A DNA stretch of 64,000 bases from a bacterium. Lineage in GTDB: Bacteria; Actinomycetota; Acidimicrobiia; Spongiisociales; ZC4RG35. The notes under the pieces were generated by a model. The model did no database searches, had not been told where the DNA came from, and saw only the letters and a program-made list of their open reading frames with translations. Numbering within the stretch: position 1 is the stretch's first letter; each line of letters starts with the position of its first letter. The stretch covers positions 72,503 to 136,502 of the forward strand of contig JAPPLW010000099.1 of NCBI GenBank assembly GCA_028819345.1, in the 5' to 3' direction. Position numbers and translations under genes: made by a program. Positions 26,157 to 35,778 of the stretch are shown one piece after another.

Positions 26157-28078
26157 GTACGGTCCGGTTGGATGCGAAGACCCCACCAGGGCCCCTCGCC
26201 GACGCGTGGGACAATCACCGCTTCTCCCTCAAGCTGGTCAACCCCGCCAACAAGCGGCATTTCAAGATCATCGTGATCGGAACCGGCCTGGCGGGCGCCT
26301 CGGCCGCCGCCACCTTGGCCGAACTCGGCTACCAGGTCGACGCCTTCACCTTTCATGACACCCCCCGCCGGGCCCACTCCATCGCCGCCCAGGGCGGCAT
26401 CAACGCCGCCAAGAACTATCGAAACGACGGAGACTCGGTGGACCGGCTCTTCTACGACACCATCAAGGGCGGAGACTTCCGCTCCCGGGAAGCCAATGTC
26501 TACCGGTTGGCGCAACTCTCACTCAACATCATCGACCAGGCCACGGCTCAGGGTGTCCCCTTCGCCCGGGAGTACGGCGGGCTCCTGGACAACCGCTCCT
26601 TCGGTGGCGCCCAGGTGGCTCGCACGTTCTACTCCCGGGGTCAAACCGGCCAGCAACTGCTGCTGGGCGCCTACCAGGCCATGGCGCGACAGGTGGGACT
26701 GGGCACCGTCAAGCTGTGGGTGCGCACCGAGTTCATGGACGTGGTCCTGAAGGAAGGGCGGGCCGTCGGCGTTGTGGTAAGAGACCTCCTCACCGGGGAG
26801 ATCACCTCTCACTCGGCTCATGCGGTGGTCCTGTGCACCGGCGGTTACTCCAATGTCTATTACTTATCCACCAATGCAATGACCTGCAACGCCACGGCGA
26901 TATGGCGGGCACACCGTCGGGGAGCAGCCTTCGCCAATCCGTGCTTCACCCAGATCCATCCCACCTGCATACCGGCTGCCGAGGACTTCCAGTCCAAGTT
27001 GACCTTGATGTCTGAGTCCCTGCGTAACGACGGACGGGTCTGGGTCCCCGCCTCCCCCGATGACGATCGGCCGCCCCGACAGATCCCGGAGAGTGATCGG
27101 GACTATTACTTGGAGAGGGTCTACCCGGCATTCGGAAACCTGGTTCCCAGAGACGTCGCTTCCCGGGCCGCCAAGCGCATGGTCGACGCAGGCCATGGGG
27201 TGGGAGCAAGGAAAAACGGCGTTTACCTGGACTTTCAGGATGCGATCGCCCGGCTCGGCCGCGAAGCCGTCGCCGCTCGCTACGACAACCTGATGGAGAT
27301 GTACAACCGGATCACCGATGAGGATCCCTATCAGGATCCGATGCGGATTTACCCCGCTCCCCACTACACCATGGGTGGGTTGTGGGTGGATTACAACCTG
27401 ATGACCACCATCCCCGGGTTGTACGCCCTGGGTGAAGCCAACTTCTCGGACCACGGCGCCAACCGGTTGGGGGCCTCCGCCCTCATGCAGGGACTGGCCG
27501 ACGGCTACTTCGTGCTCCCCTACACCATCGGCGACTATGTGGCGGAATTCCTGAATGAATCCCCGGTTCCTACGACCGACGAGGCATTTGCCCAAACCGA
27601 AGCCGAACTCCGGGAGCGGATCTCCGGATTGCTTTCGATGAATGGCAACCGCACGGTGGACGACTTTCACCGTCAACTGGGCAGGGTGGTATGGGACGAG
27701 TGCGGAATGTCCCGAAGCGAGGAGGGCTTGGACCGGGCCTTGACCTACCTGCCTGATCTCTACGAGGAGTTCCGGAGTGACGCCCGGGTCCCCGGTGATG
27801 GGGAAAGCCTCAACCAGACGCTCGAGAAAGCCGCCCGGCTGGAGGACTTCTTCGAGTTGGCGATGGCTATGTGCGTGGACGCCCGGCACCGGGAAGAGTC
27901 GTGCGGCGGACATTTCCGGGTGGAGCACCAGACTCCTCAAGGCGAAGCGGTCCGTGACGATGAGCAGTTCACGATGGTGTCGGCGTGGTTCTGGACAGGC
28001 GACCCCACCCGGCCCTTGTTGCAGGAAGAGCCACTGGCGTTCGAAAACGTGCAGCTAACCACCCGGAGCTACAAATGA
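26153..28078 (+). CDS. sdhA: Succinate dehydrogenase / fumarate reductase flavoprotein subunit
   Basis: This is the catalytic FAD subunit, 641 aa. It has the dinucleotide fold [18 protein letters not shown], the covalent-FAD histidine in [17 protein letters not shown], and the active-site segments [10 protein letters not shown] and [10 protein letters not shown], then [21 protein letters not shown] 26153 overlaps the sdhC stop, and its own stop overlaps sdhB ATG, so the three genes are tightly coupled. It oxidises succinate to fumarate at the membrane. The long, non-classical form agrees with the single-anchor sdhC. Confidence 0.95.
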
Positions 28079-28827
28079 ACATCACCCTGAGGGCATGGCG
28101 CCAGGCAGGCCCGTCGGACGAAGGCGGATTCGAGACCTACCAGGTTTCCGACGTGTCCTCGGACATGTCGTTCCTGGAGATGCTGGACGTGTTGAACGAA
28201 CGACTCACACTGGAGGGGCTGGAGCCCATCGCCTTCGACTCGGACTGCAGGGAAGGGATTTGCGGCGCCTGCGGGGTGATGATCAACGGTCGGGCTCATG
28301 GACCGCAGGCGGCCACAGCCACCTGCCAACTCCACATGAGGAGCTTCGAAGACGGCGACACCATCACCGTCGAACCCTGGCGGGCGGCGGCCTTCGCAGT
28401 CATTCGCGATCTGGTGGTCGACCGATCCGCTTTCGACCGGATCATCGAAGCTGGCGGCTTCATCACGGTCGCCACCGGTTCCGCCCCGGAAGCCAACCTG
28501 ACCCCGGTCCCCAAGGAGACGGCCGAGACCGCTTTCGACGCCGCGGCGTGCATCGGGTGCGGGGCATGTGTGGCGGCCTGTCCCAACTCCGCCGCACAGC
28601 TGTTCACCGCCGCCAAGGCCTCCCACCTCAGTCTCCTTCCCCAGGGTGGTGCGGAACGGTACGTCCGGACCGAGCGCATGGTGGACACCATGGAGCGGTT
28701 CTTCGGATCGTGCACCAACCACGGAGAATGCGAAGCCGCCTGCCCCAAACAGATTTCCATCGACTTCATAGCCATGATGAACCGCGACTACGTCAAGGCC
28801 AAGGTCAAGAACCGCGGAAACGCCTGA
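28075..28827 (+). CDS. sdhB: Succinate dehydrogenase iron-sulfur subunit
   Basis: This subunit carries electrons from FAD to quinone through three clusters. The [2Fe-2S] ligands are in [10 protein letters not shown] and the following Cys (TATC). The [4Fe-4S] motif is [12 protein letters not shown]. The [3Fe-4S] motif is [12 protein letters not shown]. It is about 250 aa. ATG 28075 overlaps the sdhA stop as ATGA. The alpha/beta hydrolase gene starts eight bases after its stop. Confidence 0.95.
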
Positions 28828-28835
28828 CGAAGACC

Positions 28836-29744
28836 GTGACTGCTCAGGAAGCCATGTGGGAGATCCCCGAACCCTCCGCCACACGCCAGGCGGTGATGGG
28901 AGACGGCACCGAGATTGCGTTGCGCCGTCATGGGAACCCGGATGGACCCAGGTTGGTTCTGACTCACGGCAACGGCCTGGCCATCGATCTCTACTACCCC
29001 TTCTGGTCTCTGCTGGCTGACGATTACGACGTGATTGTCTACGACCTCAGAGACCATGGTTGGAACGAGGTCAGCCCTCTCGAAACGCACAACATGCCCA
29101 CCTTCGTGGATGACCATGATCGCATAATGGAAGCCATCGACCAGCACTTCGGCGACAAGCCGAAGATTGGCGTATTCCATTCGATCTCGGCCTTGATCTC
29201 GCTGCTGTCGCCCACCAGGGGAAGCGGATTCGTCGGGCGCTTCTTGTTCGATCCCCCCCTCTGCAAGCCGGGGAGAAGTTACCAGCAGATGGAGGAGGCC
29301 GCCACCCGCACCGCTACGCTCACCCGGCGGCGCGCGGAGCGGTTTTCCACCCTGGAGGACTTCTCGTTTCTCCTTGGATTCGTTCCGTTATTCTCTCGCG
29401 TCGTCCCTGGCGTGCTCGACCTGATGGCCAGGACGACCCTCCGTGAAAGCGAAGGTCGGCAGGGGTACGAATTGAGGTGTCCCAAGGAATACGAGGCTCG
29501 GATCGTCGAGTACGCAGGCGTCTTCTCGGTGATGGTTGACTTCGACACCCTGGCGTCGCCCACCAAGGTCATGGGCGCAGATCCCACGCTTCCCTTCTCC
29601 TACCTCCCCACTCTCGATCTGAGTGACATCCTGACCGTCGACTACGACTTCCTACCCGAAGCCACCCACTTCCTTCAACTTGAAGAACCTGAGGAATGCG
29701 CCGCGGCGCTGCGGGAGTTCATCGACGACATCCTGGAAGGCTGA
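28836..29744 (+). CDS. Alpha/beta hydrolase, copy A (sdh operon)
   Basis: This is a 302-aa alpha/beta-hydrolase-fold protein. HGNGLAIDLYYPFWSLL contains the oxyanion-hole HGxG-like motif. The nucleophile elbow reads FHSISALISLL, so the usual GxSxG glycines are replaced. The final His is in ATHFLQLE. It begins at GTG 28836 (VTAQEAMWEIPEP), eight bases after sdhB, and is probably co-transcribed with sdhCAB. A second copy of the same family, roughly 60 percent identical by eye and with a matching N-terminus, lies at 34867. I do not know the substrate. Confidence 0.8.
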   Translation: MTAQEAMWEIPEPSATRQAVMGDGTEIALRRHGNPDGPRLVLTHGNGLAIDLYYPFWSLLADDYDVIVYDLRDHGWNEVSPLETHNMPTFVDDHDRIMEAIDQHFGDKPKIGVFHSISALISLLSPTRGSGFVGRFLFDPPLCKPGRSYQQMEEAATRTATLTRRRAERFSTLEDFSFLLGFVPLFSRVVPGVLDLMARTTLRESEGRQGYELRCPKEYEARIVEYAGVFSVMVDFDTLASPTKVMGADPTLPFSYLPTLDLSDILTVDYDFLPEATHFLQLEEPEECAAALREFIDDILEG

Positions 29745-29785
29745 CACCTCGCTCGATCAGCGGATCAGGGGAACCGGGACTTTTC

Positions 29786-32761
29786 TCAGGAACCCTCCAC
29801 TCTCACGGTGATGATGTCCATCCCGTGATACTTCTGGTGCCGGAAATCGGAGGCATAGTGGCGCAGGAGCCGAAAGGAGATCTCCCTCTCGTCCCATGTC
29901 TGAAGCTCGTCATCGAGATATGCCAACCGGTCTTGGAGGTTCTCTTCCTCCACAACCGTGACGAACTCCAGTTCAATGGCTCCCCCTTCGGGGTAGGCCA
30001 AGAGGATCAGCCGCGGCGTCTTGCCGTCCTGGTACCGGTTGGAAGGCGCCAACAGGCTGGCTAAGGCTTCTTCCCCCGCCGAACACAACCGCCGGGTTGA
30101 AGGAGCGGCCCAACCCCTTTGGCAGGCCAGGTCCTGAAGAAACCCGTCGATCAAGGAGAAAGACGATCCGTCCAGAGCCGTCCGGAGCCGTTTGGGCCGG
30201 CCACGGCTCAGCTTCAGGAACAGTGACAATCCCACCGCGGTGACCGCGCCCAGGGTGAGGCCGTCACCCAGCAGCAGATCCCAAGGCTCCTCCAAAACAC
30301 CCTCCAGAACGTTGCGCTGCAACATGCCGACTCCCACCGCGTAGGACAGGCCCACCATCACGATGTTCTGCGGACTGAGACCGGCCTGGGAAACGGTGCG
30401 CAGACCCTCCATGATCACGGTCACGGTGGGAGGCCCGACCTCCATGCCCTCCAGAAACTCCTCCAACTCGATCAGGGCCGGTTCCACCAACGCGCTGTGA
30501 AACGCCCGCGTGGTATTGAGCCTTCTGGCCCGGACCCCCTCTGATTCAAAGTCCCTCAAGATGGCCTCGATCTCTTCTATCGGGCCGCTGACCACTTGGT
30601 GGGCGCCGTTGTCAGCAGATACGCTCAACCCCAAACCGCCTGACTCCCCGTTCCGCGCCTCGACCGCCGCCGCCACCCGCTCCGCGGATGCGAAGACCGC
30701 GGCCATTGCGCCCGGCTCTGTTCCCGACAACAGCCTCCCTCGCGCCGCGGCTAACCGCATCCCGTCTTCCAGGCTGAACACCCCCGCGGCCTGCGACGCC
30801 GCCAACTCCCCGACGCTGTGCCCCATCACCACGCTGGGGTGAATGCCGACACTCGACCAAAGCGCGGTCAAGGCGCACTCCAACGCATAGAGCGCAGGCT
30901 GCTCCCAAGCCGTGTCGCCCAGGTCTCCCGCCGCTCCCTCTCGACCGAACATGACGTCCAGCAGAGATGCGCCCGTCTCGGATTCGAACACCTCCTCGCA
31001 GCGGTCGAGAACCGCCCTTGCCACCGGCTCGGTCTCGTAGAGGTCCCGTCCCATACCCACCCACTGGCTTCCCTGCCCGGTATAGACAAACCCAACCTTG
31101 CCCGGGTTCAGCGCCTCGTTTCCCGCGCCGGCCTGCGAGAGTCCTCCCAACTGCTCCCGCAGGGAGTCGACGTCCCCGAACACAATGCCTGCCCTGTGGG
31201 CGAAATGACTCCGCCCGACACCCGCCGTCCAGGACATATCCGAAAGGACCGGGTCGAGGCCGGCGTCCCGGAGGTCAGCCTCGGCGGCCCGATCGTCCAG
31301 CCAAGCCAGGTAACGCTCGGCAAGTTCCCGGAAGGCGCGGTCCGACTTGGCGGACAACGGGAGAAGACGGGTCCGGCGGGGCCGGGAGATCCCCACAGTC
31401 CCGGGAGCGGCTGCCGGCAAGTGTTCTCCGAGTTCATCATCCTCGCTGGGGGGATACTCTTCCACCACGATGTGGGCGTTGGTGCCGGATATCCCGAACG
31501 AGTTCACGCCCGCCAGTCGAGGGCGCTTGGGGCCGGACGGCCAGTCCATCATGGTCGAGGTCACCTGAAGAGGCAGTCGTTCCCAGTCGATGCTGGGGCT
31601 TGGATTGCGGAAGTGGAGATGCTTGGGGATCACCCCCTGGTTCACCACCAGGGCCGCCTTGATCAGCCCGGCGATTCCGGCAGCCGATTCCAGATGGCCG
31701 ATGTTGGTTTTCACCGAACCGATGAGGAGGGGACGGTCGGCTTGGCGGCCGGGACCGAAGACGTTCCCCACGGCATTGATCTCGATGGGATCGCCCACGG
31801 CGGTTCCGGTCCCGTGCGCCTCCAGGTAATCAATCTCGGAAGGCGTCACTCCCGCCTCGGAGATAGCGGTCTCCATCACCTGCTCCAGTGACGGCGTATT
31901 CGGGACGGTCAACCCGGTGCTGGCCCCGCCGTGGTTCACCGCCGCTCCGCGGATGACGGCCCAGATGCGGTCTCCATCGGCCTCGGCCTCCCTCAACCTC
32001 TTCAGGACGACTACCCCGCACCCCTCACCCCGCACATACCCGTTGGCGGAGGCATCGAATGCCTTGCACTGCCCATCGGGGGAAAGCATCATCGCATCCG
32101 CCCGCAACTCATAGATCCGAGTGTTCAAGATGGCCTGGACCCCGCCCACAATGGCCAGATCGGCCTTGCCCTGCTGGAGGTCCGCCACCCCGTCATGCAC
32201 CGCCACCAGGGACGAGGCGCAGGCGGCGTCGACGGCTTTCGCAGGCCCGACCAGACCTAGGACGAAAGAGACCCGTCCGCTGGCGCCGTTGAGGTTTGTG
32301 CCGCTCAGAGCGTACAGGGAACCGGCCGCCTCGGCGGGCTTGTCCGATTCAACAACCAGCATCCGGTACTCGTCATTGCTGATCCCCGTGTACACGCCCG
32401 TTCGGGTGCCTCTCAGCCTTTCCGGGTCGATACAGGCATCCTCCAATGCCTGCCAGCCCACCTCCAGCATCATGCGTTGCTGCGGGTCCAGGAGTTGTGC
32501 TTCCACCGGGGAGATGCGGAAGAAGGCTGCGTCGAATTGCTCAATCCCGTCCACGAACGCGCCGAATCGGCATGCCTCGTTCCGGGCGGAGGGATCAGCG
32601 AAGAGATCACCCAGACGGTCTCCACCGGAACCGGGAAGGCCCTCGGTCACGGTGTTCTTGCCCTCTAAGAGAAGTTGCCAGAAGGCGTCCAAGTCGTCCG
32701 CGCCGGGGAATTTGCAGGCCATTCCGACAATGGCTATCGGCTCTGCGGCCTGTCCTCTCAT
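29786..32761 (-). CDS. Type I polyketide synthase KS-AT fused in frame to NCS2-permease-like tail and HATPase-like domain
   Basis: Residues 1-435 are a complete ketosynthase: Cys181 in DAACASSL, His316 in EAHGTGT, His356 in NIGHLESA. A linker follows, then an acyltransferase from about 555 with Ser649 in GHSVGE and His755 in AFHS, suggesting malonyl-CoA. The acyltransferase stops short at about 782 (PPTVTVI), where the family would continue SNVTG. From there the frame continues as EGLRTVSQAGLSPQNIVMVG and two hydrophobic helices ending near 850, which looks like the C-terminal end of an NCS2 xanthine/uracil permease. Residues 865-991 look like a degenerate RsbW-type HATPase. No ACP or reductive domain is present. 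It is either a genuine deletion fusion or a misassembly; the join is near 30415. Confidence 0.75.
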   Translation of the reverse strand: MRGQAAEPIAIVGMACKFPGADDLDAFWQLLLEGKNTVTEGLPGSGGDRLGDLFADPSARNEACRFGAFVDGIEQFDAAFFRISPVEAQLLDPQQRMMLEVGWQALEDACIDPERLRGTRTGVYTGISNDEYRMLVVESDKPAEAAGSLYALSGTNLNGASGRVSFVLGLVGPAKAVDAACASSLVAVHDGVADLQQGKADLAIVGGVQAILNTRIYELRADAMMLSPDGQCKAFDASANGYVRGEGCGVVVLKRLREAEADGDRIWAVIRGAAVNHGGASTGLTVPNTPSLEQVMETAISEAGVTPSEIDYLEAHGTGTAVGDPIEINAVGNVFGPGRQADRPLLIGSVKTNIGHLESAAGIAGLIKAALVVNQGVIPKHLHFRNPSPSIDWERLPLQVTSTMMDWPSGPKRPRLAGVNSFGISGTNAHIVVEEYPPSEDDELGEHLPAAAPGTVGISRPRRTRLLPLSAKSDRAFRELAERYLAWLDDRAAEADLRDAGLDPVLSDMSWTAGVGRSHFAHRAGIVFGDVDSLREQLGGLSQAGAGNEALNPGKVGFVYTGQGSQWVGMGRDLYETEPVARAVLDRCEEVFESETGASLLDVMFGREGAAGDLGDTAWEQPALYALECALTALWSSVGIHPSVVMGHSVGELAASQAAGVFSLEDGMRLAAARGRLLSGTEPGAMAAVFASAERVAAAVEARNGESGGLGLSVSADNGAHQVVSGPIEEIEAILRDFESEGVRARRLNTTRAFHSALVEPALIELEEFLEGMEVGPPTVTVIMEGLRTVSQAGLSPQNIVMVGLSYAVGVGMLQRNVLEGVLEEPWDLLLGDGLTLGAVTAVGLSLFLKLSRGRPKRLRTALDGSSFSLIDGFLQDLACQRGWAAPSTRRLCSAGEEALASLLAPSNRYQDGKTPRLILLAYPEGGAIELEFVTVVEEENLQDRLAYLDDELQTWDEREISFRLLRHYASDFRHQKYHGMDIITVRVEGS

Positions 32762-32887: not shown

Positions 32888-33871
32888 TTACCGAGTGATG
32901 AGGGCGCGGAGTTCGGGCAGGACTTCTTTCTCCACTATTTCCAGGGTGCGGTCGGGGTTGACGGAGGCGATCTGGATGGCCACGTAGTCGGCGCCTATCT
33001 CGGTGACCAGCGGCCGGTAGACCTCGATCAGGTCCTCGGTGGTGGCGGCGAGCGTGTACTTGCCGAGAATCTCCGCTCGGTCCATGGAGTCGGCTCGCTC
33101 CCTCAGCACCATGGGGTCGACGGCCTGCAGTCGCCCGGGCGCGCGCAGGCCTCGCATGCTGCCCAGGGCTTCCCATGCCTCCGACTCGTCCCCGGCCAGA
33201 ACACACCAGCGGGTGGTCATCAAAGTTCCCGGACGTCCCCACTTCTCTGCCGAGGCGCGAAAGGGTCCGATCACCCTCTCTATAGTGTCCGCCGGGTCCT
33301 TGACACTGGTGATCAGCCCATCGGACCGCCTGCCGGCAAACGTAGCCGACTGCGGACCTCCGGCAGCCATCCAGATGGGTGTCTTGCGGGGCGGGGGGCT
33401 GTACAGCTTGGCCTTGTCGGTTGTGTACCAGTCGCCTGAGAAGTCAAGCTTCTCCCCCGCCAACAAACGGTGCATGATCTCCAGGGCCTCCCGCATTCTC
33501 CTGATGCGTTCCCGGTAGTCACCGAAGCGGAAGCCCAAGGGCCCCTCGTTGATGTTCTCACCGGTACCCACACCCAACACGAACTTCCCTCCGGACAGTC
33601 GGTCCACAGTCGCCGCCGCCTGTGCCACCAGGGCGGGGTGATAGTGATAGAGAGGACAGGTCACGGAAGTGGCCAGTTCGGCGTCGGTTCGGGCCGCCAC
33701 CGCCCCCAGCCAGGACCAGACGAAACCCGAAGCGCAATTGTCGTCGACCCAGGGATGGAAGTGGTCGGACCCCAGAATCATGTCAAAACCGGCTTCCTCC
33801 GCCCGCACCGCCTGGTCGACCAGGACCTCGGGCTGATAGGACTCATGGCTGCACAACCAGGCAAACTTCAA
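32888..33871 (-). CDS. F420-dependent LLM oxidoreductase (glucose-6-phosphate dehydrogenase-like)
   Basis: This 327-aa TIM-barrel enzyme resembles the F420-dependent glucose-6-phosphate dehydrogenase (Fgd) group of the LLM class. It begins MKFAWLCSHESYQPEVLVDQ, followed by ILGSDHFHPWVDDNCASGFVWSWL, which holds the F420-contacting Asp and His, then VGTGENINEGPLG and MAAGGPQSATFAGRRSDG. The true substrate may differ from glucose 6-phosphate. It is divergent from the DapA-like gene and upstream of the polyketide synthase gene on the same strand, 126 bases apart. Confidence 0.88.
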   Translation of the reverse strand: MKFAWLCSHESYQPEVLVDQAVRAEEAGFDMILGSDHFHPWVDDNCASGFVWSWLGAVAARTDAELATSVTCPLYHYHPALVAQAAATVDRLSGGKFVLGVGTGENINEGPLGFRFGDYRERIRRMREALEIMHRLLAGEKLDFSGDWYTTDKAKLYSPPPRKTPIWMAAGGPQSATFAGRRSDGLITSVKDPADTIERVIGPFRASAEKWGRPGTLMTTRWCVLAGDESEAWEALGSMRGLRAPGRLQAVDPMVLRERADSMDRAEILGKYTLAATTEDLIEVYRPLVTEIGADYVAIQIASVNPDRTLEIVEKEVLPELRALITR

Positions 33872-34866: not shown

Positions 34867-35778
34867 TTGACCCCCCACACGCAAACAGCGTGGGAGGTAC
34901 CTGAACCTCGTTCCGTTCGTACCGCCCGGATGGGCGATGGCACGAACATCGTCCTCCGGCGGCACGGGAACCCCGGGGAACCCCGGTTGGTGGTGTGCCA
35001 TGGCAACGGATTGGCCTCCGACCTGTACTACCCGTTCTGGTCTCTGCTGACCGGAGAATGCGACCTCATCGTCTATGACCTCAGGAATCATGGTTGGAAT
35101 GAGGTCACAGCCATCGGCAACCACAACATACCGTCTCTTGTCAAGGATCATGACCTCATCATGGAGACCATTGACAGCTACTTCGGGTACAAGCCCAAGG
35201 TGGGAGCCTTCCACTCCGTCTCGGCGCTGATCTCACTCCTCTCTCCCACCAAGGGGAGCGCCTTCGCCGGGCGCATCCTGTTTGACGCTCCGCTGTGCAG
35301 ACCCGGCCAGACCACTGAGGAAATGGAGGCAGCCACCGCCCGCAACGCGGCGGCCGCCAGAAAACGCAGAGAGAGCTTCGCCAACTGGGAAGACTTCTCA
35401 CATCGCCTTCGATCCGTTCCGGCTCTCTCCCGGGTAGTTCCAGGCGTCTTCGACCTGATGGCGAAGACAACCCTCCGCAAGGACCCGGGCAGTGATCATT
35501 ATGAACTGCGCTGCCCACGTGAATACGAGGCGCGCCTTGCCGAATACGGGGAGATCTACTCAGGGATGGTCGACCTGGGGGACTTGGCGTCACCGACGAA
35601 AGTGCTCGGCGCCGACCCGTCCATACCTTTCTCCTACCTGCCCTCCCTCGGCCTGACTGACATTGTTACGGTCGATTTCGACTTCCTCCCCGATTCAACC
35701 CACCTCCTTCAACTGGAGAAACCTGAGGCGTGCGCCGCGGCCGTACGGGACTTTCTGAACACAATCCATGATGGTTGA
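34867..35778 (+). CDS. Alpha/beta hydrolase, copy B
   Basis: This paralogue of the hydrolase at 28836 has the same length and architecture: HGNGLASDLYYPFWSLL, IVYDLRNHGWNEV, elbow FHSVSALISLL, final STHLLQLEKPEA. Identity is about 60 percent by eye, so the duplication is old. The start is TTG 34867, with CAGGG upstream; its N-terminus (LTPHTQTAWEVPEP) lines up with copy A (VTAQEAMWEIPEP), which supports the choice. The next in-frame ATG would remove 20 conserved residues. The two copies bracket the PKS, LLM and DapA-like genes. Confidence 0.8.
   Translation: MTPHTQTAWEVPEPRSVRTARMGDGTNIVLRRHGNPGEPRLVVCHGNGLASDLYYPFWSLLTGECDLIVYDLRNHGWNEVTAIGNHNIPSLVKDHDLIMETIDSYFGYKPKVGAFHSVSALISLLSPTKGSAFAGRILFDAPLCRPGQTTEEMEAATARNAAAARKRRESFANWEDFSHRLRSVPALSRVVPGVFDLMAKTTLRKDPGSDHYELRCPREYEARLAEYGEIYSGMVDLGDLASPTKVLGADPSIPFSYLPSLGLTDIVTVDFDFLPDSTHLLQLEKPEACAAAVRDFLNTIHDG

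Follow-up and report, generated by a model that had tools for sequence, protein, structure and literature searches.

What does a single open reading frame encode when it begins as a polyketide synthase and ends as a nucleobase permease? The question arises in a window of 64,000 nt from contig JAPPLW010000099.1 of the draft genome GCA_028819345.1 (G000), where a reverse-strand frame starts as the 5' part of a type I polyketide synthase (PKS) gene and runs on into the 3' end of a gene for an NCS2 permease. The original prediction left two origins open, an in-frame deletion or a misassembly, and proposed that the product, if real, would be a synthase tethered to the membrane with a nucleotide-binding tail. 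The features on which the analysis rests are listed below.

27985-28827, forward strand: succinate dehydrogenase/fumarate reductase iron-sulfur subunit, named from its translated sequence and not by a library search; left boundary of the locus, in blastn synteny with G001, G002, G003 and G005
28842-29744, forward strand: intact alpha/beta hydrolase of the cassette (Pfam Abhydrolase_6), adjoining permease, phosphopantetheinyl transferase (PPTase) and PKS genes in several phyla
29786-32761, reverse strand: chimeric frame of 991 aa, PKS gene 5' part and permease gene 3' end in frame
29786-30411, reverse strand: permease-derived part, the last ~208 of 577 residues, with approximately the two final membrane helices plus a degenerate domain of RsbW/SpoIIAB fold
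30412-30414, no strand: deletion junction, the 3-bp microhomology TGA common to the acyltransferase and permease parents
30415-32761, reverse strand: PKS-derived part, residues 1-782, with ketosynthase (KS), linker and an acyltransferase (AT) without its C-terminal third, assigned by Pfam and by identity to congeners
32888-33871, reverse strand: luciferase-like monooxygenase, the right-hand boundary common to all six congeners

The two parts of the chimeric frame

The first ~782 residues had been read as a KS-AT with its catalytic residues, and both the domains and the motifs bear this out. Pfam assigned ketoacyl-synt to residues 7-259, Ketoacyl-synt_C to 268-384 and KAsynt_C_assoc to 387-495, and the motifs DAACASS (178), EAHGTGT (314), KTNIGH (351), GHSVGE (647) and AFHS (753) are all present. 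The KS therefore carries the Cys-His-His set of a type I PKS, and the whole PKS-derived part shares 86-89% protein identity with the N-terminus of the PKS in the congeners G003, G004 and G005. The AT retains its catalytic Ser and His but is cut, since the match to Acyl_transf_1 (PF00698, residues 558-783) covers only positions 2-219 of the 319 in the profile. This agrees with the break predicted at the site where SNVTG was expected; in the congeners the AT continues there as SNLTG. Pfam found no PP-binding match in the fused frame, and the acyl carrier protein (ACP) of G003 sits inside the stretch that the window has lost.

The remainder of the frame shows 95, 95 and 83% identity to the permeases of G003, G005 and G004, respectively. 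Residues 781-850 align with the final 71 positions of the NCBIfam model pbuX (337-407 of 407), and two full-length permease paralogues elsewhere in G000 (580 and 597 aa) show 43% and 40% identity to the tail, which confirms the NCS2 C-terminus recognized earlier. The parent permease of G003 matches the NCS2 models TIGR00801 and TIGR03173 over residues 23-436, scoring under the curated cut-off in either case. Of the core and gate domains of a full NCS2 permease (about 14 helices), by contrast, only the final ~70 residues remain in the fused tail, followed by an extra C-terminal domain. One weak hydrophobic helix passes the Kyte-Doolittle cut in the tail, compared with 12 segments in the intact permease.

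The extra domain, described from the outset as a degenerate RsbW-like or HATPase-like region, has no sequence match in Pfam or the PDB. An AlphaFold model of the tail, built from 19 homologues and of medium confidence (pLDDT 68 overall, 82-89 over residues 71-120), nevertheless points to the same assignment. The best solved matches in Foldseek were RsbW, UsfX and SpoIIAB (E 8e-7 to 6e-4, probability 1.00, TM by target 0.65-0.85), and the predicted model thus adopts an RsbW/SpoIIAB-like fold. The tail differs from these anti-sigma factors in sharing only 8-16% identity with them, in lacking a Pfam match and in its conserved columns, which are without the canonical Asn/GxG nucleotide motifs. On inspection of the 19 aligned homologues, the invariant columns include GEE but neither the helix Asn of the N-box nor the DxGxG of the G-box, which makes ATP binding by the tail domain doubtful. 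The domain was not made by the fusion; it is part of the normal permease and present in the aligned full-length homologues. The NCS2 permeases of this group (window 29786-30200; alignment) hence carry a C-terminal RsbW/SpoIIAB-fold domain that sequence libraries miss. Since anti-anti-sigma factor genes are listed next to such a permease (PMC3908369), a partner-switching control of transport by permeases with this tail is conceivable.

The junction and the missing interval

The junction was aligned against both parent sites of G003, G004 and G005. The join lies at window position 30411|30415: in the base-level alignment, the match to the permease extends as far as 30414 and that to the AT starts at 30412, so that three bases are common to both. 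The 33-bp word across the junction reads CAGACCCTCCATGATCACGGTCACGGTGGGAGG. In alignments with G003 and G004 the window forms two colinear blocks which meet at 30412-30427. The frame continues without a stop through all 991 codons, in accordance with the claim of an intact frame near 30415.

Five congeners were searched for the parent genes. In each of G003 and G004 one contig carries both parents, with the order and strand seen in the window, which is colinear with these genomes at 91-92% and 88% identity, respectively. An interval of 10,349 bp by comparison with G003, or 10,342 bp with G004, is missing from the window. It encodes the rest of a 3.4-kaa PKS (the AT C-terminus, DH, MT, ER, KR, ACP and a second KS-AT), a 250-aa PPTase and residues 1-369 of the permease. 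No copy of the interval occurs on any other contig of G000, and no other Sfp-type PPTase in this genome was convincing (best E 0.03). G005 has the locus as well, split across three contigs whose ends showed no exact overlap.

Adjacent same-strand parents in relatives, one lost interval and little homology at the join are the marks of an illegitimate deletion scar. The locus resembles deletion-fusion pseudogenes formed by illegitimate recombination at short microhomologies in its two same-strand stumps, its 3-bp overlap and its single lost interval, and differs from them in that its frame happens to stay open. The parents' spacing of 10.35 kb on one strand in congeners favors the in-frame deletion put forward initially. 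Two separate full-length genes in relatives had been named as a finding against the fusion; such genes exist, but a real deletion predicts the same.

Two routes involving repeats were rejected. Words of at least 9 bp shared within 150 bp of the G003 breakpoints were not found, which argues against a repeat-mediated deletion and against an assembler collapse at a long repeat. Two same-strand alpha/beta hydrolase paralogues (28842-29744 and 34867-35778; 64% protein identity) flank the cassette. These hydrolase genes, ~70% identical, were considered as a recombining repeat and discarded, as they are not located at the breakpoints.

Origin of the chimeric frame

The most economical reading is a non-functional scar. 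With good confidence, we regard the frame as the product of a ~10.35-kb deletion that took out the central part of a PKS cassette in this acidimicrobiian sponge symbiont, most likely a recent loss of function that left neither a working synthase nor a working transporter. Illegitimate end-joining at the 3-bp microhomology would have removed the PKS portion from the AT C-terminus through DH-MT-ER-KR-ACP-KS-AT, the PPTase gene and the first 369 permease codons, and would have joined the start of the PKS gene to the end of the neighboring permease gene. The two stumps happen to share a frame, which leaves the 991-codon frame open; with a chance of one in three, this state needs no selection. Both parent genes with their order, the breakpoints, the lack of the interval in the assembly and the single occurrence of the fusion are observations, from which we infer a deletion that is real in the organism, recent and destructive of function. 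Relaxed selection on the KS-AT after the deletion was considered and not borne out: the ratio of replacement to silent changes (N/S) is 0.38 on the window branch and 0.56 and 0.41 on the sister branches. The lack of excess replacements is as expected for a recent deletion, but leaves function unsettled, because a fusion still under constraint predicts the same.

A variant of this reading, whose probability is counted within that of the deletion, concerns how the ends were brought together. Homology-facilitated illegitimate recombination, in which one end is homologous and the other illegitimate, is a described mechanism (PMC3240628). DNA of a G005-like relative would have entered by homologous recombination on the left side of the join and by illegitimate joining at TGA, with loss of the middle of the cassette. 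We consider this course possible yet unlikely. The tract at 28400-30411 is nearer to G005 (95.8%) than to G003 (92.6%) and ends near the deletion junction; identity to G005 is 95.8% at 28.4-30.41 kb and falls to 87.6% at 30.43-32.43 kb. With arms of 2 kb, 69% of the informative sites are G005-like left of the join as opposed to 38% on the right (Fisher p 2e-8), and the strongest affinity switch of the window is found at 30500. With arms of 0.5 and 1 kb, however, many positions switch more strongly (the junction comes 22nd among 716 and 42nd among 764), and the left end of the G005-like tract is ill-defined.

The same switch beside the join is what could be expected if the cassette were intact in the source population and the assembler had either passed over 10.3 kb or merged two strains at 30412. 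Such an error seems improbable. It is favored by the draft state of the assembly (120 contigs) and by the G005 cassette, whose split into three contigs marks the region as hard to assemble. The affinity switch is nevertheless weak evidence against a real deletion, because the window shows similar switches at other positions. An overlap of 3 bp with no 9-bp word nearby is far below assembler k-mers, and the window contains no N. Moreover, the missing 10 kb is not found on another contig of G000, and two congeners have likewise lost or lack the cassette. On either side of the join the window is about 92% identical to G003, near-uniformly over the whole 64 kb, which also led us to reject a chimera of two species. 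The misassembly raised at the outset thus stands as an alternative, though a less likely one than the deletion.

A functional fused protein is very improbable. In its general form, the frame would encode a membrane-tethered KS-AT with a nucleotide-sensing tail that works with a carrier protein in trans. The open frame, the intact KS and AT motifs and the absence of excess replacements in the KS-AT would suit such a neo-protein. Against it stand the AT that stops at position 219 of 319, the loss of both ACP and PPTase, the single weak helix in place of 12 hydrophobic segments, a tail alignment without a canonical nucleotide-binding motif and the want of a second example among the 296 genomes of the class. 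Since the fused protein has neither an ACP nor the end of the AT and has lost most permease helices, a membrane-tethered synthase is unlikely, and the tethered enzyme envisaged in the original prediction, with approximately two helices, a degenerate GHKL-like domain and no counterpart, finds no support. That this deletion-born protein of a sponge symbiont is expressed and selected as a membrane-docked KS-AT served by fatty-acid carrier proteins in trans is less likely still.

The parent cassette and its loss in the genus

The fusion is a singleton. The other homologues of the tail in the class (296 genomes) lie in permease frames of up to 702 aa or in fragments, a scan of genome contigs yielded matches in congeners and in other phyla without a further case of the fusion, and the homologues fetched from other phyla match over the whole permease. 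Other genomes with the same architecture, which would have spoken for a real fusion protein, were accordingly absent from both searches.

In two congeners the cassette is reduced further. G002 retains the flanks with a 240-bp KS relic between them (L066:9004-9243), and in G001 the cassette is absent, with about 100 bp left between the same flanking genes (L079:11634-11735). From the relic and the absence we conclude that the loss recurs and that the cassette is undergoing loss in the genus; the scar in the window would be one of several such losses. In G003 and G004 the PKS gene has one +1 frameshift each, at differing sites and in both cases within a short homopolymer (L061:15060-15110 and L062:12440-12700), and in G058 the KS-AT is likewise split. 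Frameshifts have been reported in 15.4% of supA amplicons (PMC4245539), and those of G003 and G004 may reflect decay, phase variation or error.

By its architecture, the parent cluster is probably the known sponge cluster sup ('sponge symbiont ubiquitous PKS'), which comprises the PKS SupA and the permease SupE. For a permease of 557 aa, SupE (ABE03914) is listed as the best match (PMC3908369, Table 1), and methyl-branched fatty acids have been proposed as the sup product (PMC4245539; PMC9864124). The likeness, drawn from a comparison of architecture only, lies in a fully reducing type I PKS with a methyltransferase beside a permease in the intact relatives, in sponge symbionts; of this arrangement, the window has kept only the KS-AT and the end of the permease. 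Sup is described as mono-modular (PMC4245539), whereas the PKS of the congeners consists of a full module and a second KS-AT.

Permease, hydrolase, PPTase and PKS genes also occur together in metagenome-assembled genomes (MAGs) of Chloroflexi and Candidatus Binatota. In those of Gemmatimonadota and Latescibacterota, permease, hydrolase and PKS genes are found together, with no PPTase detected in the stretch examined. The cassette PKS of the other phyla (L089-L097) is about 55-76% identical. Judging by their isolate names, these MAGs are probably sponge-associated. The clustering of the cassette across several phyla points to horizontal spread. Within the family of the window, the permease tail was detected in none of 28 sampled genomes of other genera, so that the cassette was probably acquired horizontally.

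What looks like a new multidomain protein in a draft genome from the environment can thus be a deletion scar, and synteny with congeners reveals it. The locus adds evidence that a PKS/permease cassette common to sponge symbionts of several phyla has been repeatedly lost or broken in one genus, and this repeated loss bears on whether host or symbiont still needs its product.
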